Shown here in pieces: positions 2,687-47,967 of a DNA stretch of 50,306 bases. A program made the position numbers and the translations under genes. The DNA comes from a virus, in the IMG/VR virus record IMGVR_UViG_3300046727_000310, positions 1-50,306 of that record. One strand, written 5' to 3'. The first letter of the stretch is position 1; each line of letters begins with the position of its first letter. The notes under the pieces were generated by a model. The model made no database searches. It saw nothing but the letters and a program-made list of their open reading frames with translations, and was not told the origin of the DNA.

Positions 2687-3523
2687 ATGACGTGTGGAAT
2701 TTACTTCCTCAAAAGCCAGAGCGGCAAAATGTATGTTGGTTCCTCGATACGAGCCGAGAAGCGCTGTATCCAGCATTTGAGTGATTTGCGTAGCAATCGG
2801 CACCCTTCGCGTCGGCTGTCAAAGGCATTTGTGAAATATCGTGGTGAAGGCTTTGAATTCGGCCTCCTTGAAGAATGTCTTCCAGAGCAGCTTGAGGAAC
2901 GGGAGCAGTTTTGGATCGACAAGTTGAAGCCACGGTATAATTCGCGCTTGCGGGCGGATTCCAATAGGGGCTTGAGGATGACGGAGGCAGAGCGTGCGGC
3001 CCATTCCGGTCATTTAAAACGTATGATTGCGAACAACCCGGATTTTCGCGAGCATCTTATCGAGCAAAATGAGTTGAACTGGGCGAACCCTGAGAAGAAG
3101 GCTGCTCGTGTTGCTGCCATGATAGCTGCTTGGACGCCCGAGAAGCGAGCTGGAGTTTCGCTAAAACAGAAAGGTATCGATAACGGCGAAGCTGCTCGCA
3201 TTGCTCGCTGGAGCAGACCGGGTGCTGGTGAGCGACAAAGTGAACTTACGAATCAAATATGGGATCGCCGCGGTCGTAAGAACACACCGGAAGCGATTAA
3301 AGCTAAGACAACTGAATTAGGCTGGGAGTGCAGGGAGATCGGACCACCAAGTAAGCCTGGTGCCGTTGATGGTCGGGTTACCATCTATTGTTCTAAGCAT
3401 GATTATATTGGGAAACCTACTGTTCAGAGGCTTATGTACCGGGGGCAAGGGTGCCGGTATTGTGGGTTCGAACGATCTTCTGTGAAGCAGGCTGGGCGCC
3501 CTAAAGGGAGCTACTCCCGATGA
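2687..3523 (+). CDS. GIY-YIG homing endonuclease, free-standing
   Basis: 278 residues. The N-terminal GIY-YIG nuclease domain shows CGIYFLKSQSGKMYVGSS (GIY at 4-6, YVG at 16-18), the Arg of the second helix (AEKRCIQHL) and the late Glu of REQFWIDKLKP. The middle is basic and repetitive. The C-terminus has HDYIGKPTVQRL and a CRYCGFE turn, probably DNA-binding. It lies between the coat and adaptor genes, its stop overlaps the next start (ATGA at 3520-3523), and its base composition is richer in A+T than its neighbours, so it looks like a mobile insertion. Its ribosome site is in a strong hairpin. Confidence 0.9.
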   Translation: MTCGIYFLKSQSGKMYVGSSIRAEKRCIQHLSDLRSNRHPSRRLSKAFVKYRGEGFEFGLLEECLPEQLEEREQFWIDKLKPRYNSRLRADSNRGLRMTEAERAAHSGHLKRMIANNPDFREHLIEQNELNWANPEKKAARVAAMIAAWTPEKRAGVSLKQKGIDNGEAARIARWSRPGAGERQSELTNQIWDRRGRKNTPEAIKAKTTELGWECREIGPPSKPGAVDGRVTIYCSKHDYIGKPTVQRLMYRGQGCRYCGFERSSVKQAGRPKGSYSR

Positions 3524-35683: not shown

Positions 35684-35989
35684 ATGGATTGCCCGACGTG
35701 CCCGCGCTGCCACCAACCGATCCGCCGTGAGCGGTTCGGCGTCTATCTGCCTGAGCTCAAGGGCCGCATCGTCGACGCGATCGCGGCGGCCGGCGACATC
35801 GGGATCGGCGTCGACGACCTGATCGCGACCGTCTGGGGCACGGGCGGCAGCAACCGCAACACCGTCAAGTCGCACATCCAGCAACTCAACGAGCTGCTCG
35901 CTGGCAGCGGCGTGCGGATAAGCCGCGAGGGCTGCCGGTACCAGCCGGGGCATTACGTCATCACGCGCAGCAAGAGGGCAGCGGCATGA
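35684..35989 (+). CDS. Winged-helix protein with zinc-ribbon start
   Basis: 101 residues. CPTCPRCHQP gives three Cys (CxxCxxC) for a possible zinc knuckle. The rest reads as a response-regulator-type winged helix (GRIVDAIAAAGDIGIGVDDL, NTVKSHIQQLNELLAGSGVR, GYRYQPGHY-like end). Likely DNA binding in early gene control. ATGA overlap with the methyltransferase. Confidence 0.7.
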   Translation: MDCPTCPRCHQPIRRERFGVYLPELKGRIVDAIAAAGDIGIGVDDLIATVWGTGGSNRNTVKSHIQQLNELLAGSGVRISREGCRYQPGHYVITRSKRAAA

Positions 35990-36915
35990 GAAAACAAGCA
36001 AAGCTGCTCGCGAATTTCCTTGGCGCGACCAAGGAACTCACGAGCGAATACGCCGAACTGGCTGGCATTACGCCGAAAGAATTAGAACAAATAGGAAATG
36101 CTGTAACGAAAATCAAAAGCGCCGACGAACGTAAAGCACTTGCGAAGATGCTGGCCGCGAAAGGCCTAACCACTCGCCAGATTGCAGACCTGACGGGCTG
36201 GTCGCATGAGACGATTGCCGCTGATCTACGCCCTCGTCAGAAATCTGACGAAAACCGTCAGAAGTCTGACAGCACGAGCGCCGGCTCTCCCACCGCTCGT
36301 GCCCGCAATGATGAGCGAGCGGCAGAAGTCGCGGCGGAGGTCGAGGGCGAGGGAGTGACACCGGAACCGCAGGAAAAATACCGCATCATCTATGCCGATC
36401 CGCCCTGGTCTTATGGCGACACGACTCTGGTGCCGCATCGGATGGGGTTGCCGGCTGGCGATGCGCGCGAGCACTACCCGACAATGGAGCTTTCCGCAAT
36501 CTGCGCGTTGCCCGTCAACCATTGGGTAGAAGACAATGCGGTGCTTTTCCTCTGGGCGACGTCGCCGATGCTGCAGGAAGCACTCCAGGTCGTGAATGCC
36601 TGGGGCTTCGAATACAAGGCGTCATTCGTGTGGGACAAGATCAAGCACAACATGGGGCACTACAATTCGGTGCGCCACGAGGTGCTTTTGGTCTGCACGC
36701 GCGGCTCCTGCCAGCCAGACAAGCAACAGCTCTTCGACAGCGTGCAGAGCATCGAGCGCAGCGACAAGCATAGCCAGAAGCCAGTCGAATTCTACGACAT
36801 CATCGAGACGCTCTACACGCATGGCCGAAAGCTCGAAATGTTTACGCGCCGCAAACGTGACGGATGGGACGTCTACGGTCATGTGGCCGAATTGAACGAC
36901 GAGGCCGCGGAATGA
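35986..36915 (+). CDS. MT-A70-type DNA adenine methyltransferase with HTH start
   Basis: 309 residues. N-terminal helix-turn-helix (GLTTRQIADLTGWSHETIAAD), a low-complexity linker holding two copies of RQKSD, then the MT-A70 fold: IIYADPPWSYGD with catalytic DPPW at about 138-141, FLWATSPMLQEAL, KASFVWDKIKHNMGH, EVLLVCTRGSC, KPVEFYDIIETLYTHGRKLEMF. It uses S-adenosylmethionine to methylate adenine. In phages this often protects DNA from host restriction. Coupled by ATGA to both neighbours, including a DUF3883-like partner. Confidence 0.85.
   Translation: MRKQAKLLANFLGATKELTSEYAELAGITPKELEQIGNAVTKIKSADERKALAKMLAAKGLTTRQIADLTGWSHETIAADLRPRQKSDENRQKSDSTSAGSPTARARNDERAAEVAAEVEGEGVTPEPQEKYRIIYADPPWSYGDTTLVPHRMGLPAGDAREHYPTMELSAICALPVNHWVEDNAVLFLWATSPMLQEALQVVNAWGFEYKASFVWDKIKHNMGHYNSVRHEVLLVCTRGSCQPDKQQLFDSVQSIERSDKHSQKPVEFYDIIETLYTHGRKLEMFTRRKRDGWDVYGHVAELNDEAAE
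36236..36270. repeat. Two tandem dyads GTCAGA-NN-TCTGAC in the methyltransferase gene
   Basis: GTCAGAAATCTGAC at 36236-36249 and GTCAGAAGTCTGAC at 36257-36270, spaced 21 bases. They encode the peptide repeat RQKSDENRQKSD, so they may simply be coding repeats. The exact palindromic arms at two helical turns leave room for a protein-binding role. Confidence 0.4.
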
Positions 36916-37688
36916 AGCTCGCGACTCTTAGTAAGCGTGGCACGGATATTGTTGCTGCGGGCTTGAAGCTCTCGCGGCGGTTCACTCGTGCCGATCTTGC
37001 CGAGGAATATGGAAGGGCTCGGCTCGCTCGCGATGGCCAATTGCCGCAACATTGGAAGCAGGGCATCAGCAACGAGTTGCAGCGGCTCGGCAGCGGCTTC
37101 TCGCGATTTCACCAGGAGGGGCGGCGGGTTGATCTAATAACGCGCGTCGGATCTGGTAAGTATTGTTTCCGTGATGAAGTCAGGCCGAAGCTAATCCAAG
37201 CCGCAAACGAACGCGCAAATCTATTCACATGTCAGAACGTGCTCGTTCTACCGATCGAGGCCGATGATGTTGCCGGCGAGCCGACGAGCCATTCGATCGG
37301 CGTCTACGCGCACCAGAAGATCATGGCACTGATGCAAAGCAGAGATTACGAAACGAAGGACACATCAACTGGTCGTTCATACGATTTCACCTTCTGTGGC
37401 CGCAACCGTTTTCATTCGCCACAAATCATGGAATGCAAAGGAACACGTCTAGCCGATGGGGATTTTTCTGTGACGCCAAACGAGGTGACCGTGATGGCTC
37501 TCAACCCAACAAATTATTGGTTGGGTGTTGTTTATTCCATCGATATTACGAATGGGATTGCATCCGGGGGAACAGCATTCATCACATCACCACTAGTCCT
37601 TGCCAAATGGCAGTTCACGAAAACCTTCCGATTACGGCGCATGCCCGATGCGCGGGAACAAGAGATTGGACAAGGGCGATTGCTATGA
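36912..37688 (+). CDS. DUF3883-like protein, possible nuclease partner
   Basis: 258 residues from ATG 36912. The N-terminal part is helical (SRRFTRADLAEEYGRARLA). The C-terminal part resembles the DUF3883 fold: SHSIGVYAHQKIMALMQSR, RSYDFTFCGRNRFHSPQI, MECKGTRLADGDFSVTPNEV, YWLGVVYSIDI. The Asp of YDFTF and the ExK of MECKGT would form a PD-(D/E)XK-type site. It directly follows an adenine methyltransferase, so a small restriction-modification-like unit is possible. Function not shown. Confidence 0.55.
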   Translation: MKLATLSKRGTDIVAAGLKLSRRFTRADLAEEYGRARLARDGQLPQHWKQGISNELQRLGSGFSRFHQEGRRVDLITRVGSGKYCFRDEVRPKLIQAANERANLFTCQNVLVLPIEADDVAGEPTSHSIGVYAHQKIMALMQSRDYETKDTSTGRSYDFTFCGRNRFHSPQIMECKGTRLADGDFSVTPNEVTVMALNPTNYWLGVVYSIDITNGIASGGTAFITSPLVLAKWQFTKTFRLRRMPDAREQEIGQGRLL

Positions 37689-41315: not shown

Positions 41316-41645
41316 ATGCCCATCGATGATATTGGACCGAATTCGTTATCAGAAGCCTTCATCGTCCGGCATTCGGACGGCTCGACGGAAGGCCGGCATC
41401 CGGACGACCTGGCGCTTGAAGTCCTAGGGCAAGCGCATCAAAAACGCTCGATCATGGCAGTTATCCGGGCGAAATGCCTAGACTGCTGCTGCTACCAGCA
41501 ATCCGAGGTCCGGCGCTGCACGGCTGTCCACTGCCCGTTATGGCCGTATAGGATGGGGACAAATCCATTTCACGGCGCCCGGGGCAAGGAAGTAGCCCCC
41601 GGAGCATTCATCCGAAAAACTCCTGTTAAAGACGGGGGAGATTGA
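41316..41645 (+). CDS. Small Cys-rich protein
   Basis: 109 residues from ATG 41316. The frame extends upstream to 41100 without ribosome site. SIMAVIRAKCLDCCCYQQSE, VRRCTAVHCPLWPYRMGTNP: six Cys suit a small zinc-binding domain. Proteins with the motif KCLDCC...CPLWPYRMG.NPF are widespread in alphaproteobacterial phages. DNA binding or regulation is plausible. Confidence 0.7.
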   Translation: MPIDDIGPNSLSEAFIVRHSDGSTEGRHPDDLALEVLGQAHQKRSIMAVIRAKCLDCCCYQQSEVRRCTAVHCPLWPYRMGTNPFHGARGKEVAPGAFIRKTPVKDGGD

Positions 41646-41974
41646 ACCTCGCCGCAGTCGTAGACGGTCCGGAACCATACTCCAAACCTCGATCCCAGCG
41701 CACCCCACTACCACAACGTAATGATATCAGCGGCTTAGGTGCTCGCGGCCCTCACGCGTGCAGTGCGCACCGCGCGGATTGTCCTTCGCCAAGGCGGAAC
41801 GGACTTTTGCTCATATTAAGCAAATCCCTCCTCCGTAGCCCACCCGGAACCACGGACTTTTCCCGGCCCGCCGGCGCGATGGCACAAATCGAGAGCGGCC
41901 CTACGCAACAATCTTTCTTGTTCGTGTGCGGAAATGTGCGGATCTTTCCGGTTAATCTGGGATATAATCTGATC
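41646..41974. other. Gap before HNH gene: no gene seen
   Basis: 329 bases. A weak open frame continues into the HNH gene from 41642 but has no protein character. A TATAAT-like box is at about 41962-41967, shortly before the HNH start, with no good -35. Otherwise nothing recognised. Confidence 0.4.
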
Positions 41975-42378
41975 ATGACATGGAATGGGAAGATGCTTCC
42001 TTTGCCGCCGGCTTCCTTGCTGCGAATTCTATTCGACTATGACAAGGAAACCGGCTTGCTCACCTGGAGAATCCGCGGGCCTCGCATTCGGCCTGGCATG
42101 GAAGCTGGGTGGCGTAGCAAGCGTTGGGGCTATCGCAGCGTTACAATTGAATATGAGGAATATCGCGTACATCGCATCATCTGGAAAATGGTAACCGGGC
42201 GCGACCCTGATCCTGAACTAGATCACATCAACCGGATTCGTGATGACAATCGATGGAGTAACCTACGAGAGTGTAATCATTCACAGAACTGTGTGAATAA
42301 ATCCGCTCATGGCTACATTGGGCAGCCCCGCGCGAGTGGCAAATTCGCAGCGCGTCCAAAATGACGAAATGTGCGGAT
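41931..42378 (+). repeat. 13-bp direct repeats flanking the HNH gene
   Basis: GAAATGTGCGGAT occurs at 41931-41943 and 42366-42378, both followed within 12 bases by TCTTTmCGGTT. They bracket the HNH gene and may mark the boundaries of its insertion. No larger mobile unit is visible. Confidence 0.5.
41975..42364 (+). CDS. HNH endonuclease, probably C-terminally truncated
   Basis: 129 residues from ATG 41975. The HNH domain reads YRVHRIIWKMVTGRDPDPEL, LDHINRIRDDNRWSNLRECN, HSQNCVNKSAHGYIG. Members of this type continue with an AP2-like DNA-binding domain (GYIGV..R.SGKF.ARI), as in the gene at 25493. Here the frame ends right there (RASGKFAARPK), so the second domain is missing or out of frame. 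It may be inactive. Confidence 0.75.
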   Translation: MTWNGKMLPLPPASLLRILFDYDKETGLLTWRIRGPRIRPGMEAGWRSKRWGYRSVTIEYEEYRVHRIIWKMVTGRDPDPELDHINRIRDDNRWSNLRECNHSQNCVNKSAHGYIGQPRASGKFAARPK

Positions 42379-42472: not shown

Positions 42473-42643
42473 ATGCGCTTTAGGATAGCTTTTTGTTACC
42501 ACGGCCGGGACTACCATGAAGGTTACATGCTGGCACCGCGAGGATGCTCATCGAGCTTTGATGCCGAGCAATGGTTTCTCGTCAACTACTGCAGCAAGGG
42601 TTTGCTCTACACTCTCGCATGCGCTTGCGAGGTGCAATCATGA
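42473..42643 (+). CDS. Small Cys/Tyr-rich protein, 56 residues
   Basis: ATG at 42473 after the leader. MRFRIAFCYHGRDYHEGYML is followed by APRGCSSSFDAEQWFLVNYC, with Cys at several places. Stop TGA 42641-42643 overlaps the next ATG (42640). First gene of the ribozyme-containing operon. Function unknown. Confidence 0.6.
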   Translation: MRFRIAFCYHGRDYHEGYMLAPRGCSSSFDAEQWFLVNYCSKGLLYTLACACEVQS

Positions 42644-42828
42644 TCAGCAAGGCCCGCACCATTCAATGTTCTGACAATGGCGATGATTTCACGGTTGATG
42701 TCCTCTTCGAGGATGACAGCTTGGAAGCGGACAGCCATTTCTCTGGCAAAGGCCGCAGGGTCAAAGCGGAGCGTCGCGCAGAGGTGCTCGCCAAGCTTCA
42801 CGGCTGCGACTGGGTCACCAACTACTGA
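42640..42828 (+). CDS. Small protein, 62 residues
   Basis: MISKARTIQCSDNGDDFTVD then VLFEDDSLEADSHFSGKGRR and VKAERRAEVLAKLHGCDWV. ATGA-coupled to the previous gene. Followed three bases after its stop by a hammerhead ribozyme (42832). Acidic middle and basic helix. Unknown function. Confidence 0.6.
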   Translation: MISKARTIQCSDNGDDFTVDVLFEDDSLEADSHFSGKGRRVKAERRAEVLAKLHGCDWVTNY

Positions 42829-42831
42829 ACA

Positions 42832-42883
42832 GGTCGAAACGGCCCCAGGGCCGTCTGGCGGTTAGGCCGTCACTGACGAGACC
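42832..42883 (+). ncRNA. Type II hammerhead ribozyme D
   Basis: GGTC (42832-42835), GAAA (42836-42839), stem III CGGCC/GGCCG around CCAG, T-C at 42854-42855, stem I TGGCGG (42856-42861)/CCGTCA (42867-42872), CTGACGA (42873-42879), GACC (42880-42883). Stem II is the open one, formed by GGTC and GACC. The conserved core CUGANGA, GAAA, A-U closing pair and C17 are all present. Predicted cleavage is between 42855 and 42856. It lies directly after the stop of the gene at 42640. Confidence 0.9.
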
Positions 42884-42897
42884 AGACGAACGAACCA

Positions 42898-42941
42898 GGG
42901 CGCTTTGGCGAGTGTCCGACAACATAGCGAGGACGAAGACT
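42898..42941 (+). promoter_or_regulatory. UGGC-loop hairpin leader, copy 2
   Basis: GGGCGCT (42898-42904), loop TTGGCG, AGTGTCC (42911-42917), spacer gacaacat, AGCGAGGACGAAGACT (42926-42941), ATG at 42942. The AGCGAGGACGA contains the Shine-Dalgarno GAGG. Confidence 0.75.
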
Positions 42942-43106
42942 ATGATTAATCAAGAAGACAAATTTGATGATGCTTGCGACGATGCAACACATGCTGTCAT
43001 AGCGGCATTTGAATGGCTGCCGCTATTGCCAAAAGACGAAAAATTATCGGCTCTTATGTATCGAATAAACGACGCCATTACCGCAATTATGGCGGATTTC
43101 AAATAA
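42942..43106 (+). CDS. Small acidic protein, 54 residues
   Basis: From ATG 42942, MINQEDKFDDACDDATHAVI, then AAFEWLPLLPKDEKLSALMY. The open frame back to 42912 runs through the leader and is not used. Preceded by the stereotyped leader and followed at once by structured RNA element 1. Unknown function. Confidence 0.6.
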   Translation: MINQEDKFDDACDDATHAVIAAFEWLPLLPKDEKLSALMYRINDAITAIMADFK

Positions 43107-43163
43107 CGGATTGATTGCAGCGCATGCCGCTCCATGGGGGCGGCATGGTCGGCGATCATGCCG
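43107..43163 (+). ncRNA. Unassigned structured RNA element, copy 1
   Basis: Starts right after the stop codon. Outer pairs CGG (43107-43109) with CCG (43161-43163). P1 TGATTGC (43112-43118) with GCGATCA (43152-43158), one T-G pair. Left joint AGCGC. P2 ATGCCGC (43124-43130) with GCGGCAT (43140-43146), loop TCCATGGGG. Right joint GGTCG. Copy 2 at 43735 shows the same helices with different paired bases, so the fold is supported by compensating changes. It sits in the slot that holds hammerheads after other genes. It lacks CUGANGA and GAAA, and no known ribozyme class is recognised. Confidence 0.65.
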
Positions 43164-43206
43164 GGACATCTTGGCGGATGTCCAACAACATAAGCGAGGA
43201 CGAACG
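43164..43206 (+). promoter_or_regulatory. UGGC-loop hairpin leader, copy 3
   Basis: GGACATC (43164-43170), loop TTGGCG, GATGTCC (43177-43183), spacer aacaacata, AGCGAGGACGAACG (43193-43206), ATG 43207. A perfect 7-bp stem. Confidence 0.75.
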
Positions 43207-43734
43207 ATGACTACCTTAACGAAGCTCGACATTACTGCATTGCGCAAGTGCGACGACATTTGCGTGCATCTGAACAGCAAGAGCCCGGACGGCCTGGTGC
43301 GCGCGATCAAGCGCAAGGGTTATGGCAACCCCGATCCGTTTGCGACGGACATAGAGCACAATGTCACGGCTAAGGTGGAGATTGATACCTCGCGCGGGCG
43401 CGAAGCGATGAAAGCCGGCGACGTGCAATGCTTTGCGATGATCGGTGTCTATCACTCGCAGCATACTAGCGCGTCGTGCATCCTCAAGACATTGCGCGCC
43501 GATGACGAGATCACATTCCGATTTTATCCGGACGCCCACACGAACGGATATGTCGCGATGGGCGGGTTACATGCCGATGCGCTCTACTTGGACGTTCGGC
43601 GCGAGGGCAAGGTCATTGCGCGCTGGGAACTGGATATATCGATCACGCCGGCCAATTCCGCTCGCATGTGTCGCGGGGTTCCAAATGCTGAGAGCTATGC
43701 GCGCGATGCCAGCGAAGCACGGCAGGTAGCGTAA
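43207..43734 (+). CDS. Hypothetical protein, 175 residues
   Basis: From ATG 43207, MTTLTKLDITALRKCDDICV. Upstream codons of the open frame lie in the leader RNA. Mixed beta/alpha: VTAKVEIDTSRGREAMKAGD, YHSQHTSASCILKTLRADD, TNGYVAMGGLHADALYLDV. This looks like a compact cytoplasmic domain. No family recognised. It follows element 1 and precedes element 2. Confidence 0.65.
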   Translation: MTTLTKLDITALRKCDDICVHLNSKSPDGLVRAIKRKGYGNPDPFATDIEHNVTAKVEIDTSRGREAMKAGDVQCFAMIGVYHSQHTSASCILKTLRADDEITFRFYPDAHTNGYVAMGGLHADALYLDVRREGKVIARWELDISITPANSARMCRGVPNAESYARDASEARQVA

Positions 43735-43792
43735 GGCGTGATTGCAGTTGATGGGCGCTCCATTGCGGGCGCCTATCGGCGGCAATCAAGCC
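43735..43792 (+). ncRNA. Unassigned structured RNA element, copy 2
   Basis: Starts right after the stop codon. Outer pairs GGC (43735-43737) with GCC (43790-43792). P1 TGATTGC (43739-43745) with GCAATCA (43782-43788). Left joint AGTTG. P2 ATGGGCGC (43751-43758) with GCGCCTAT (43769-43776), loop TCCATTGCGG. Right joint CGGCG. Compared with copy 1 the outer triplet and P2 change on both strands while pairing is kept. TGATTGCAG, the CGC-TCCAT loop start and the trailing GCCGG are the conserved bases. Class unknown. Confidence 0.65.
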
Positions 43793-43794
43793 GG

Positions 43795-43835
43795 CCCTCT
43801 TTGGCGAGAGGGAAACACAGCGAGGACGAAGAACC
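43795..43835 (+). promoter_or_regulatory. UGGC-loop hairpin leader, copy 4
   Basis: CCCTCT (43795-43800), loop TTGGCG, AGAGGG (43807-43812), spacer aaacac, AGCGAGGACGAAGAACC, ATG 43836. Confidence 0.75.
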
Positions 43836-44297
43836 ATGTCTGCTTTCGTAGTCTCCCACGACCATATCGACGCGCTGCTTTCGTTTGCTAAGGACAAGCG
43901 GATGAAAGACCAGCTCGGCTATTTTATCCAGCCTAGCAAGGCTGGATTGTTTGATTGGACCGACATCGGCCGCGTTCTACTAGCGGAGAACGAGCGCTCG
44001 GTCTGCCATCGTTACCCGGATTGTGGGCCTGGCAACATGCCGGGCAAGATCGGTGAGGACGCGAGCGCCTATGCGTTCCGGTATTTCGAGCCGTTCGTCC
44101 ACATGCAGCACACGAAGCGCTGCGTTTGGGTAATCAAGAATTGCGATTGCTTCGACTATCAGGCTTGCGAGACCGACGATTATAGGCAGACGGTCGCGCA
44201 CCGGATAATTGCGGCAATCCGCGCGGCGGCAATCCGCGGCTTGCCCGATTACGAGACCGCGCCCTGGGGGATAGATCGCGGTCGATCGGCGGCATAA
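43836..44297 (+). CDS. Hypothetical protein, 153 residues
   Basis: MSAFVVSHDHIDALLSFAKD, then KAGLFDWTDIGRVLLAENER, YAFRYFEPFVHMQHTKRCVW, CFDYQACETDDYRQTVAHR, ending PDYETAPWGIDRG. The pattern HDHIDALLSFA and the C-terminal DYETAPWGI occur in a widespread phage/plasmid family of unknown function. Good composition. Its TAA abuts hammerhead B. Confidence 0.7.
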   Translation: MSAFVVSHDHIDALLSFAKDKRMKDQLGYFIQPSKAGLFDWTDIGRVLLAENERSVCHRYPDCGPGNMPGKIGEDASAYAFRYFEPFVHMQHTKRCVWVIKNCDCFDYQACETDDYRQTVAHRIIAAIRAAAIRGLPDYETAPWGIDRGRSAA

Positions 44298-44357
44298 GGA
44301 CGAAACCGGGCACTTTGTTGTGCCCGGTCGCGCCGTGATGCGGCGCCTGACGAGTCC
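44298..44357 (+). ncRNA. Type II hammerhead ribozyme B
   Basis: GGAC (44298-44301), GAAA (44302-44305), stem III CCGGGCAC (44306-44313)/GTGCCCGG (44320-44327), T-C (44328-44329), stem I GCGCCG (44330-44335)/CGGCGC (44341-44346) around TGATG, CTGACGA (44347-44353), GTCC (44354-44357). Both hairpins are perfect and the core is complete. Cleavage predicted between 44329 and 44330. It begins at the base after the TAA of the previous gene. Confidence 0.95.
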
Positions 44358-44389
44358 AGATGACCCAGCTCAATGCGAGGACGAGGACA

Positions 44390-44617
44390 ATGCCTAGCAA
44401 ATCTGAATTGAAGCACATAGACCGCGCGCACGACAAAGTAACCAAGCTCGATCGAATCATTGCGCTGGCGCAGCAAGACGCGGACCGCACCGGCAAGACG
44501 CTACTGATATTCAATCTCAACCCCTACTCGCCGCTGTACGTCATCCGCAATTTTACGGTTGCCGGCGCCAACAGCCGCGAGCTTGTGCGCGTGGTGACGC
44601 CGGGAGGTGTGTCATGA
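44390..44617 (+). CDS. Small helical protein, 75 residues
   Basis: From ATG 44390, MPSKSELKHIDRAHDKVTKL then DRIIALAQQDADRTGKTLLI and FNLNPYSPLYVIRNFTVAG. It is preceded by a shorter leader (CTC-AATGC-GAG then GACGAGGACA). Stop overlaps the next start (44614-44617). Confidence 0.65.
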   Translation: MPSKSELKHIDRAHDKVTKLDRIIALAQQDADRTGKTLLIFNLNPYSPLYVIRNFTVAGANSRELVRVVTPGGVS

Positions 44618-44817
44618 TGGTAAAGATTTACGATTACGACAACAACGACAACGAAACATTGCGCGGTCAATGTGATTTGCGCGACTGCTTCCCAGACGCT
44701 GCAGAGCATCGTGACCCTGAATACTTCCATGCTCTTTCTGAGTTGACCAAGGCCGGCCGCTATTGGGTTGGCGGTGGCGCCGGGCCGCTTGTGCTGTTGA
44801 TGGCGGTGCGATCATGA
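44614..44817 (+). CDS. Small acidic protein, 67 residues
   Basis: MMVKIYDYDNNDNETLRGQC, then DLRDCFPDAAEHRDPEYFHA and LSELTKAGRYWVGGGAGPLV. Coupled by ATGA at both ends. Unknown function. Confidence 0.65.
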   Translation: MMVKIYDYDNNDNETLRGQCDLRDCFPDAAEHRDPEYFHALSELTKAGRYWVGGGAGPLVLLMAVRS

Positions 44818-44999
44818 AAACAGATCAAGGCCCACCGACGCAGGCCGAGGTTGAGGCCATCTCGCGCGAGCTGACCGAGGCGCACCCGGGACGCTCTTCC
44901 ACCACCGCCGACCTATGCCACCGCGCCGCTGTCATGATCGCGCGGCTCGAGCGGGCCTGGCTGGAGGCTCGCGACCACAAGGACGAAACGGGGAACTGA
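44814..44999 (+). CDS. Small helical protein, 61 residues
   Basis: MKTDQGPPTQAEVEAISREL, then TEAHPGRSSTTADLCHRAAV and MIARLERAWLEARDHKDETG-N. Its last codons (from 44981) are also the 5' part of hammerhead C, so the ribozyme and the gene share bases. Unknown function. Confidence 0.65.
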   Translation: MKTDQGPPTQAEVEAISRELTEAHPGRSSTTADLCHRAAVMIARLERAWLEARDHKDETGN

Positions 45000-45037
45000 T
45001 CTCCCCGTCCTGCCGTGACGCGGCAGCTGATGAGTCC
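44981..45037 (+). ncRNA. Type II hammerhead ribozyme C, overlapping the gene end
   Basis: GGAC (44981-44984), GAAA (44985-44988), stem III CGGGGA (44989-44994)/TCCCCG (45002-45007), T-C (45008-45009), stem I CTGCCG (45010-45015)/CGGCAG (45021-45026) around TGACG, CTGATGA (45027-45033), GTCC (45034-45037). Cleavage predicted between 45009 and 45010, ten bases after the TGA at 44997-44999. The first 19 bases are coding. Confidence 0.95.
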
Positions 45038-45050
45038 AGTAGACCCAACC

Positions 45051-45086
45051 GCCGCATGGCGCGGCACATAGCAAGGACCAACGAAC
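45051..45086 (+). promoter_or_regulatory. UGGC-loop hairpin leader, copy 6
   Basis: GCCGC (45051-45055), loop ATGGC, GCGGC (45061-45065), spacer acat, AGCAAGGACCAACGAAC, ATG 45087. One base differs from AGCGAGGA. Confidence 0.7.
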
Positions 45087-45401
45087 ATGATGAAACGATT
45101 ATTGCTTGCAAGCACGCTGCTGTTGCCTGTTGCGGCGCATGCGACCCCGCTGGACCAGGCGAACACGCTCGCCTTTATAAAGGAGGCAATGGCAACTTGT
45201 CTGGCGGGAATGAACAACAACAACGCTTATTGCAGTTGTTACGTCCTCGCCGCCGCCAACCGGAGCACGATGGAGGACGGCACATACTTCATCGCAAACG
45301 GAAAACTTCCGGCCGATTACGTCGAGCGCGTTGCCAAGCCATCAATAGCGGATTGCCTGAAGCCACCCGTATCCGACAAAAATTGGTGGCAAGTCTGGTA
45401 A
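45087..45401 (+). CDS. Secreted small Cys-containing protein
   Basis: 104 residues. Signal peptide MMKRLLLASTLLLPVAAHAT (residues 1-20). The mature part has Cys in ATCLAG, AYCSCYVL and IADCLK, and Trp at the end (NWWQVW). Four Cys in the periplasm suggest disulfides. It could act on the envelope. Unknown function. Good ribosome leader upstream. Confidence 0.7.
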   Translation: MMKRLLLASTLLLPVAAHATPLDQANTLAFIKEAMATCLAGMNNNNAYCSCYVLAAANRSTMEDGTYFIANGKLPADYVERVAKPSIADCLKPPVSDKNWWQVW

Positions 45402-45411
45402 ACGGCGGGGC

Positions 45412-45514
45412 GGGCCGGCGGGATTGGCGTCCCGGCCGGCCCTATCCTTCCGCGGGCTAGGCTGCCGCGAGGACCGAAGCAGCCGGCCCGGCGGACGGAA
45501 TGATTAAACATTAA
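45412..45514 (+). other. Leader without a gene (vestigial)
   Basis: A strong hairpin with the same TTGGCG loop (45412-45423 with 45430-45442, one bulge), then GCGAGGACCGAAG at 45467-45479, as in the other leaders, and an ATG at 45500 that opens only four codons (M-I-K-H, TAA at 45512-45514). It looks like the leader of a lost gene. A 14-bp palindrome, GCGCCATATGGCGC, follows at 45532-45545. Confidence 0.5.
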
Positions 45515-45568
45515 CAGAGGCCGCCGCTCTTGCGCCATATGGCGCTGTGCGCAATATTACCGGAACCG

Positions 45569-45613
45569 GGGCGGCCTTGGCGGGCGCCCGCAACAAGCGA
45601 GGACGATAAAACA
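45569..45613 (+). promoter_or_regulatory. UGGC-loop hairpin leader, copy 7
   Basis: GGGCG-G-CC (45569-45576) pairs with GG-CGCCC (45583-45589) around TTGGCG with one bulged G, spacer gcaaca, AGCGAGGACGATAAAACA, ATG 45614. Confidence 0.7.
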
Positions 45614-45850
45614 ATGACTGATGATGTCCTGGACTTCTTGCGCGAACGATTTGCGCGTGTGGATAGGCGATTCGACGACATTGAAAAACGGATGGACAGC
45701 ATCGAACACAATGTGCGCGAGCTTTCCTATGGACAGACGGTGCTGACCGAGATGGTGTTGCGGCTCGCCCGCGACATGGTGCAGATGAAGGACATGCTGG
45801 GCCGCCTGGACAACCGGCTCGCGCGCTTGGAGACGGCGACGGCGCCTTGA
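45614..45850 (+). CDS. Coiled-coil protein, 78 residues
   Basis: From ATG 45614, MTDDVLDFLRERFARVDRRF, then DDIEKRMDSIEHNVRELSYG and VQMKDMLGRLDNRLARLETA. Regular heptads over the entire length, as in the protein at 28607. Stop directly before hammerhead A. Confidence 0.7.
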   Translation: MTDDVLDFLRERFARVDRRFDDIEKRMDSIEHNVRELSYGQTVLTEMVLRLARDMVQMKDMLGRLDNRLARLETATAP

Positions 45851-45851
45851 A

Positions 45852-45914
45852 GGACGAAACCGGCGGCTACTAGGCCTTGCCGGTCGCACCGTGAATGCGG
45901 TGCCTGACGAGTCC
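45852..45914 (+). ncRNA. Type II hammerhead ribozyme A
   Basis: GGAC (45852-45855), GAAA (45856-45859), stem III CCGGC (45860-45864)/GCCGG (45879-45883), T-C (45884-45885), stem I GCACCG (45886-45891)/CGGTGC (45898-45903) around TGAATG, CTGACGA (45904-45910), GTCC (45911-45914). Cleavage predicted between 45885 and 45886. Stem II may extend (GAA upstream with TTC after a two-base bulge AG). Confidence 0.95.
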
Positions 45915-45932
45915 AGTTCCGACTCTAACGAA

Positions 45933-45969
45933 CGCCGCATTGGCGCGGCGCACAAGCGAGGACGAAACC
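45933..45969 (+). promoter_or_regulatory. UGGC-loop hairpin leader, copy 8
   Basis: CGCCGC (45933-45938), loop ATTGGC, GCGGCG (45945-45950), spacer caca, AGCGAGGACGAAACC, ATG 45970. The last part, GGACGAAACC, is identical to the 5' start of hammerheads A and B. Confidence 0.75.
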
Positions 45970-46089
45970 ATGAGAACTATCCTTACCGTGCTGTCGATTG
46001 TTGCTGGTCTTGCTGCGGCTACGGCGCCGGCGCACGCCGATTGCCGCTGGGAATGGAACGGCAATGGCTGGCAGCAAATCTGCCGCTGA
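45970..46089 (+). CDS. Secreted peptide, 39 residues
   Basis: Signal peptide MRTILTVLSIVAGLAAATAP-AHA, then a very short mature part (DCRWEWNGNGWQQICR) with two Cys. ATG 45970 follows the leader. Small secreted peptides of this type occur in rhizobia and phages. Function unknown. Confidence 0.65.
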   Translation: MRTILTVLSIVAGLAAATAPAHADCRWEWNGNGWQQICR

Positions 46090-47196: not shown

Positions 47197-47967
47197 TTAC
47201 TTCTCCCGGCGCAGGAATGCCGGTATGTCCGGCAGCTCGAACGGAGCGACAGCCGCCTTGGAGGGCTTCGCGGCTGGCTCGGGTGGCAGTTGCGGCCTCG
47301 GCTTCTCGGCTGGCGCCATGGCCACCGGGGTGACCTGGGTGACCGGGATGTTGAGCGGATTGGGATTGCGAACCGGGCTCCCCCGCTTGTGCTGCGGTAT
47401 GACTACCGGCGCCTCGGGGTTAAGTTCGTTATGCCGGCCGACCCAATTGCGGATCGTCTGCTTCGGTATCCCGAATTGATCCGCAAGCTCGGCCGGATGC
47501 TTCCCGGAGCGGACCAATTCCACGACTTGCCGCTTGAATGCCGGCCAGCCGATCTTCGGCCGCCGCACCTGCCGCACCCCCAGCTCGGCCCGTCTTTTCT
47601 CGTCGGCGGTCGGCGGCTTCTTGTGCCGGGCATCGCGGCAGAAGCCATGCACCTGCTCGCGGTAGCCGCCCGCCGTTATGCCGTGGATGCGGTGCGACGA
47701 CCACCCGAGCTCGATCATGATCTTGGTCAGCCGCTGGTAGTGCTCGTTCTTGCGCTTGCCCATCGGCACCTTGAGGATGTCGAGCAACGACTGCGCCGTG
47801 ACCCGCTCGATCCCGTCATGATCGACCACCCCCTTGGCCCGCTCGAGGATCGGCACCCAGACGTCGGCGTTGCGGTTCTCCAGCCGCACCTTCTCGGAAT
47901 CAAGCCGCTCCAGCCACGACAACGGAAAGTTCGGGACTAGGTCGTCGCCTTGCTGTGCATCGCTCAT
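47197..47967 (-). CDS. HTH protein, possible small-terminase or VapE-type
   Basis: 256 residues. The N-terminal half is helical (LDILKVPMGKRKNEHYQRLT, KIMIELGWSSHRIHGITAGG), with similarity to the C-terminal part of VapE-type primases. The middle shows a homeodomain-like HTH (FKRQVVELVRSGKHPAELADQFGIPKQTIRN). The C-terminus is Pro-rich. Small terminases often carry such HTHs, and a terminase large subunit is three genes upstream, but the order is unusual. Function uncertain. Confidence 0.55.
   Translation of the reverse strand: MSDAQQGDDLVPNFPLSWLERLDSEKVRLENRNADVWVPILERAKGVVDHDGIERVTAQSLLDILKVPMGKRKNEHYQRLTKIMIELGWSSHRIHGITAGGYREQVHGFCRDARHKKPPTADEKRRAELGVRQVRRPKIGWPAFKRQVVELVRSGKHPAELADQFGIPKQTIRNWVGRHNELNPEAPVVIPQHKRGSPVRNPNPLNIPVTQVTPVAMAPAEKPRPQLPPEPAAKPSKAAVAPFELPDIPAFLRREK

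Follow-up and report, generated by a model that had tools for sequence, protein, structure and literature searches.

Four elements with the complete anatomy of type II hammerhead ribozymes lie between small, co-oriented genes of a single soil phage (virus record IMGVR_UViG_3300046727_000310, whose 50,306 bases were all analyzed and are hereafter called the window), and we consider it probable that they cut a co-transcribed mRNA of these genes and belong to a socket-like RNA block. They are best read, from sequence, as separators of a polycistronic accessory-gene mRNA, predicted to be self-cleaving and also to mark module boundaries. Anatomy, covariation, and conservation back the claim of an earlier note on this DNA that type II hammerheads separate the genes of one phage, and its further suggestion, a self-cutting polycistronic mRNA, is the interpretation that these data best support.

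Matches of its internal virion protein (~40% identity to the Rhizobium phages RHph_TM, weaker to Lessievirus-like Burkholderia phages) identify the phage as tailed and its host as probably an alphaproteobacterium. The hammerheads occur within the following gene run, defined from gene calls, family searches, and relatives:

42473..46089, + strand: run of co-oriented small accessory genes (~39-175 aa)

Family searches with these small genes returned almost no known families, many of the genes are replaced by unrelated ones in relatives, and a collection of 50,697 phage records contained nothing that matched the 42.4-46.2 kb region. In the hammerhead region, signals resembling promoters or terminators are no commoner than in shuffles, a frequency that is compatible with a single transcript but does not demonstrate one. 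An HNH endonuclease gene (41642-42364) lies directly 5′ of the run. Elsewhere in the window, an endonuclease-rich stretch contains a group I intron (2138-2455; Rfam, 57.8 bits) near an HNH endonuclease gene (667-1656) and a homing endonuclease gene (2687-3523), and a gene with a NO VEIN C-terminal (NOV_C) domain (36864-37688) adjoins a DNA methyltransferase gene (35986-36915), a possible modification- or defense-related pair.

Both strands of the window were scanned with a descriptor consisting of stem II, GAAA, a closed stem III with the A15.1-U16.1 pair, UH, a closed stem I, CUGANGA, and stem II again. The scan yielded four complete type II hammerheads, all on the + strand, and none elsewhere in the 50,306 bases; 60 Markov-shuffled windows yielded no motif:

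42832..42883, + strand: type II hammerhead 1 (descriptor and covariance models; orthologues with compensatory changes in eight relatives)
44298..44357, + strand: type II hammerhead 2 (descriptor, 54-hammerhead model, relatives)
44981..45037, + strand: type II hammerhead 3 (descriptor, 54-hammerhead model, relatives)
45852..45914, + strand: type II hammerhead 4 (descriptor, 54-hammerhead model, relatives)

These are the positions given in the earlier note, and the cut sites that it predicted agree to the base, with C17 at 42855, 44329, 45009, and 45885. All four copies contain CUGANGA, GAAA, the A15.1-U16.1 pair, a UH site, and three stems, with stems I and III closed and stem II open, as befits type II. 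Hammerhead 1 has a GGUC/GACC stem II, a stem III of 6 bp, and a stem I of 6 to 7 bp (predicted cut, 42855/42856); hammerheads 2, 3, and 4 have a 4-bp GGAC/GUCC stem II. The loop I close to TGANG that had been described in three copies appears as UGAUG (hammerhead 2), UGACG, and UGAAUG, the first copy having UUAGG, and the AG said to follow stem II directly is present in all four. Adjacency to stop codons also stands: three copies begin 0 to 3 nt past a stop, and the third overlaps a gene end. More specifically, the first base of hammerhead 2 (predicted cut, 44329/44330) is the next after the TAA of the 43836-44297 gene; hammerhead 4 (predicted cut, 45885/45886) lies one base past the TGA of the 45614-45850 gene; and the 44814-44999 ORF ends within hammerhead 3, its TGA lying in loop III, 5′ of the predicted cut at 45009/45010. 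All four predicted cuts fall 3′ of the upstream stop codon and 5′ of the next ribosome-binding site. Energy folding of extended contexts, with models that contain no tertiary contacts, gave the full hammerhead fold in one of the four.

Relatives were drawn from eleven contigs that carry the 43836-44297 gene and from further contigs with the gene for a P63C-domain protein. Nine distinct phages (the window, L162, L163, L165, L166, L208, L210, L211, and L213) possess a total of 25 hammerheads, whose position and strand are fixed, with retention in the same slot across the nine. All 250 of the pairs tested (the first five of stem I and of stem III in each copy) form, compared with 118 of 250 after a shift of one position, and the 25 copies comprise 14 versions of stem I and 18 of stem III, related by compensatory changes. 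The core is intact in 23 copies; the others, with stems intact, are A14G in L165 (2778-2846, GAGA for GAAA) and U4C in L163 (4624-4685), so some copies are possibly weak or dead, although U4C, despite lower activity in vitro, was sufficient for a viroid in vivo (PMC3088659). These two core mutants, together with near-identical copies that precede unrelated genes, could be taken to mean that the hammerheads are decaying or selfish leftovers of gene cassettes, devoid of phage function, but the strong compensatory conservation and the retention of slot, position, and strand in nine phages make this very improbable.

Beyond the nine phages, no hammerhead was found in the DNA examined from more distant contigs that have the P63C-domain protein in common (L216-L242), across the whole records of contigs with the internal virion protein in common (L150-L157, possibly fragments), or, with covariance model R1, in the nearest virion-protein relatives scanned, Rhizobium phage RHph_TM3_14A, Burkholderia phage BcepIL02, and Ochrobactrum phage POI1126. 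With respect to the P63C-domain protein itself, positions 47290-47940 of the window match the 464-aa protein of L166 from roughly residue 215 onward, its C-terminal part, and in several relatives the match is confined to the same C-terminal half; the N-terminal half thus appears to have been exchanged.

Surrounding genes turn over while the RNA block stays constant. In slot 1, the block, taken to run from the A that precedes stem II as far as the ribosome-binding site, is 84 to 93% identical between phages, and identity falls to near the shuffled level in the 150 nt upstream (10 of 10 pairs) and in the 150 nt downstream (9 of 10 pairs, the exception being L163/L165, which have the downstream gene in common); across the nine phages, the genes next to this slot belong to five families on the upstream side and to six on the downstream side. 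Change at the other slots is mostly one-sided. In other, unrelated phages, 39 near-identical hammerhead pairs (a small set, with repeated comparisons within the group of L026, L030, L053, L090, L097, and L119) had both flanks homologous in 2 cases, one flank in 18, and neither in 13.

Homology that begins and stops at the block, with both flanking genes changed, and near-identical hammerhead-leader copies before different genes within one phage (L028) are also what one would see if the blocks were preserved chiefly as homology seams at which phages recombine with one another, with self-cleavage incidental or secondary. Orthologous blocks, however, differ in stem sequence, which would harm a pure seam, and pairs kept by compensation in every instance, along with 23 of 25 cores intact, require selection on RNA rather than on DNA identity, rendering this explanation unlikely. 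Gene turnover on both sides of an RNA block that is maintained by compensatory change points to a job independent of any particular gene.

A second conserved RNA, composed of a UGGC-loop hairpin and an GCGAGGAC ribosome-binding site, lies 3′ of most hammerheads in the group. The layout of this leader is constant (UGGC-loop hairpin, typically AACAUAGCGAGGACGAA, and start codon), and its hairpin arms vary between leaders with compensation. The window contains six leaders, versus 0.075 expected per shuffled window:

42898..42941, + strand: leader hairpin (UGGC loop) and GCGAGGACGAA ribosome-binding segment of the next gene, 3′ of hammerhead 1 (conserved in relatives)
43164..43206, + strand: leader hairpin and GCGAGGACGAA, without upstream hammerhead (leader pattern scan)
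43795..43835, + strand: leader hairpin and GCGAGGACGAA, without upstream hammerhead (leader pattern scan)
45051..45086, + strand: leader hairpin (AUGGC loop) and GCAAGGAC, 3′ of hammerhead 3 (leader pattern scan)
45572..45613, + strand: leader hairpin and GCGAGGACGA, without upstream hammerhead (leader pattern scan)
45933..45969, + strand: leader hairpin and GCGAGGACGAA, 3′ of hammerhead 4 (leader pattern scan)

Leaders precede genes with and without a hammerhead, and because several genes have the leader alone, processing is not gene by gene. Outside the group (L192, L194, L197, and L198), the exact pattern falls in stretches that do not form the leader, and we rejected it as a widespread motif. 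A long noncoding stretch (45402-45570), conserved in L162 and L163, has a GC-rich tail and a further inverted repeat, around ATTGGCG (45419-45434), and is possibly a further structured RNA.

The ribosome-binding segment GCGAGGACGAA resembles the 5′ strand of the hammerhead, and AGGACGAA occurs 8 times in the window versus 1.5 expected, as might follow from a regulatory switch in which cleavage releases GUCC to pair with the GGAC of the downstream ribosome-binding site. Such a switch is largely refuted and retains next to no probability: in all nine phages, stem II of slot 1 is GGUC/GACC, a sequence unable to pair with the GGAC that the leader of this slot nonetheless retains; GGAC is likewise present in leaders that have no hammerhead; and the ribosome-binding sites of the other hammerhead phages listed are mostly different.

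A search of the window with the Rfam Hammerhead_II model (RF02276), which the earlier note had proposed as a check, reported copy 1 only, just short of the cutoff (35.4 bits versus a gathering threshold of 37; E = 1.4e-3); hammerheads 2, 3, and 4 had no match to this model even at E ≤ 5. RF02276 describes a 2-bp stem II and a conserved 3′ tail. A model constructed from 54 phage hammerheads matched all four copies (E = 4e-15 to 6e-18) and had no further match in the window, but these four are themselves members of the model, and independent support therefore comes from conservation in relatives identified by gene homology. Applied at its cutoffs to ten hammerhead-rich loci, Rfam reported none of the hammerhead copies there. 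Six phage contigs (L002, L007, L012, L024, L044, and L075) each have at least four type II hammerheads within ~12 kb, again with none reported by Rfam at its cutoffs, and four other hammerhead loci were absent from the 50,697-record phage collection or matched it only in short pieces. Type II hammerheads of a large phage class lie below the Rfam cutoffs; as such, their number is underestimated.

To test this form, viral contigs (at least 120 stretches) and bacterial genomes (28 stretches) were scanned, blind to pairing, for the bare core with GGAC/GUCC. Both stems form in 166 of 181 distinct core-pattern matches among those listed, compared with 15 of 3,620 (0.4%) when gaps are shuffled. In an alignment of 54 sequences, 99.9% of cells pair, and the covariation score is 0.81, versus 0.15 for shuffled and at most 0.13 for slid alignments; these sequences were preselected for pairing, which makes the orthologue test the cleaner one. 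Covariation thus supports the stems in the 54 sequences and in the orthologues alike.

Among the 210 hammerheads listed for this class, 140 begin between −3 and +6 nt from a stop codon on their own strand (13 for the opposite strand), most have the stop codon abutting or overlapping stem II (the gap distribution peaking at −1, 0, and +2 nt), and 187 have a ribosome-binding site and start codon on their 3′ side, at a median of 24 nt versus 46 nt in the control. The abutting stops, and an overlap between hammerhead 3 and its gene seen in L166 as well as in the window, would accord with a translation-coupled switch, whereby ribosomes terminating on the upstream gene mask GAAA and the 5′ stem II strand, so that the RNA is cut only once translation of that gene has ceased or become sparse. 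Compact phage genomes, however, put any intergenic element near a stop, so this proximity is partly forced, and we judge it quite unlikely that such a switch is the principal explanation.

The pseudoknot between loop I and the 3′ tail is common in, but not required for, type II hammerheads. We rejected it as a feature of this class: 17 of the 210 listed copies can form at least four Watson-Crick pairs, no excess over the 18.5 expected from permuted tails, in a collection whose pattern fixed stem II at 4 bp and may have favored the pseudoknot-free form. Loop I starts with U in 193 of the 210 listed copies, and the base adjoining stem II is A (A−1 in 195, A+1 in 143), which suggests a non-Watson-Crick contact like that of types I and III.

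Returning to the proposal of a self-cutting mRNA, we infer that the hammerheads would cleave one co-transcribed accessory-gene mRNA, in the cell, into shorter units. The upstream message would then end in stem III with a 2′,3′-cyclic phosphate, and the downstream message would start with a 5′-OH on stem I, beyond which the UGGC-loop leader usually lies. Hairpin ends with a cyclic phosphate or a 5′-OH are expected to slow RNase E entry and 3′ exonucleases. The likely benefit would be that each gene or short block obtains its own mRNA with defined, structured, and possibly protected ends, so that its expression would depend little on upstream sequence; this per-gene independence would, in turn, make the hammerhead-leader block a standard socket for gene exchange. 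The common sequence of the block may double as a recombination seam, and neither this nor ribosome-coupled cleavage would conflict with the main mechanism, to which each could be an addition. We suggest more tentatively, as a real possibility though somewhat short of an even chance, that these blocks are natural expression sockets, in which a predicted self-cleaving insulator, coupled with a standard translation leader, lets phages swap their accessory genes at set positions, each new gene being expressed at once and independently of its neighbors. If so, the same socket principle, with other leaders, may underlie many phage hammerheads absent from Rfam.

The array arrangement itself is already known, and the novelty implied for it in the earlier note was overstated: clustered hammerheads that flank prophage genes and cleave in vitro were published by Perreault et al. 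in 2011, including a triple array of Agrobacterium tumefaciens that cleaves in E. coli and clusters in Azorhizobium caulinodans and Clostridium scindens prophages (PMC3088659). The same study found 4 of 18 consensus hammerheads to be inactive in vitro and described the loop I-tail pseudoknot in most type II hammerheads (PMC3088659). Hammerheads located near each other and flanking small nonconserved ORFs have also been noted elsewhere, where their role in bacteria and phages was called an open question (PMC6155905). Like the 2011 clusters, for which transcript processing was proposed, the window has several nearby hammerheads between small, inconstant genes, with at least two on the same strand flanking genes of a phage region. 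Unlike them, it represents a different phage group with four copies and repeated UGGC-loop leaders, and relatives were compared directly, revealing a constant RNA block amid changing genes.

With RF02276, the four copies share an identical catalytic core and a layout in which stem II is open and the other two stems are closed; copies 2 to 4 depart from it in their 4-bp GGAC/GUCC stem II and in belonging to a class without a detectable loop I-tail pseudoknot. The contact suggested by the loop I U and the stem II A would resemble that of type I/III hammerheads (sTRSV), from which they differ in the open helix. As far as the literature searched shows (a search outside most subscription papers and all preprints), what is new is the pseudoknot-free class below the Rfam cutoffs, the paired leader, and the pattern of constant block and changing genes. 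A further parallel may be the RiboJ-type insulators, which are engineered and derived from sTRSV: here, too, a hammerhead separates what lies upstream from a ribosome-binding site led by a hairpin, an arrangement that in RiboJ standardizes the mRNA 5′ end, but the phage block is natural and its insulation a prediction.
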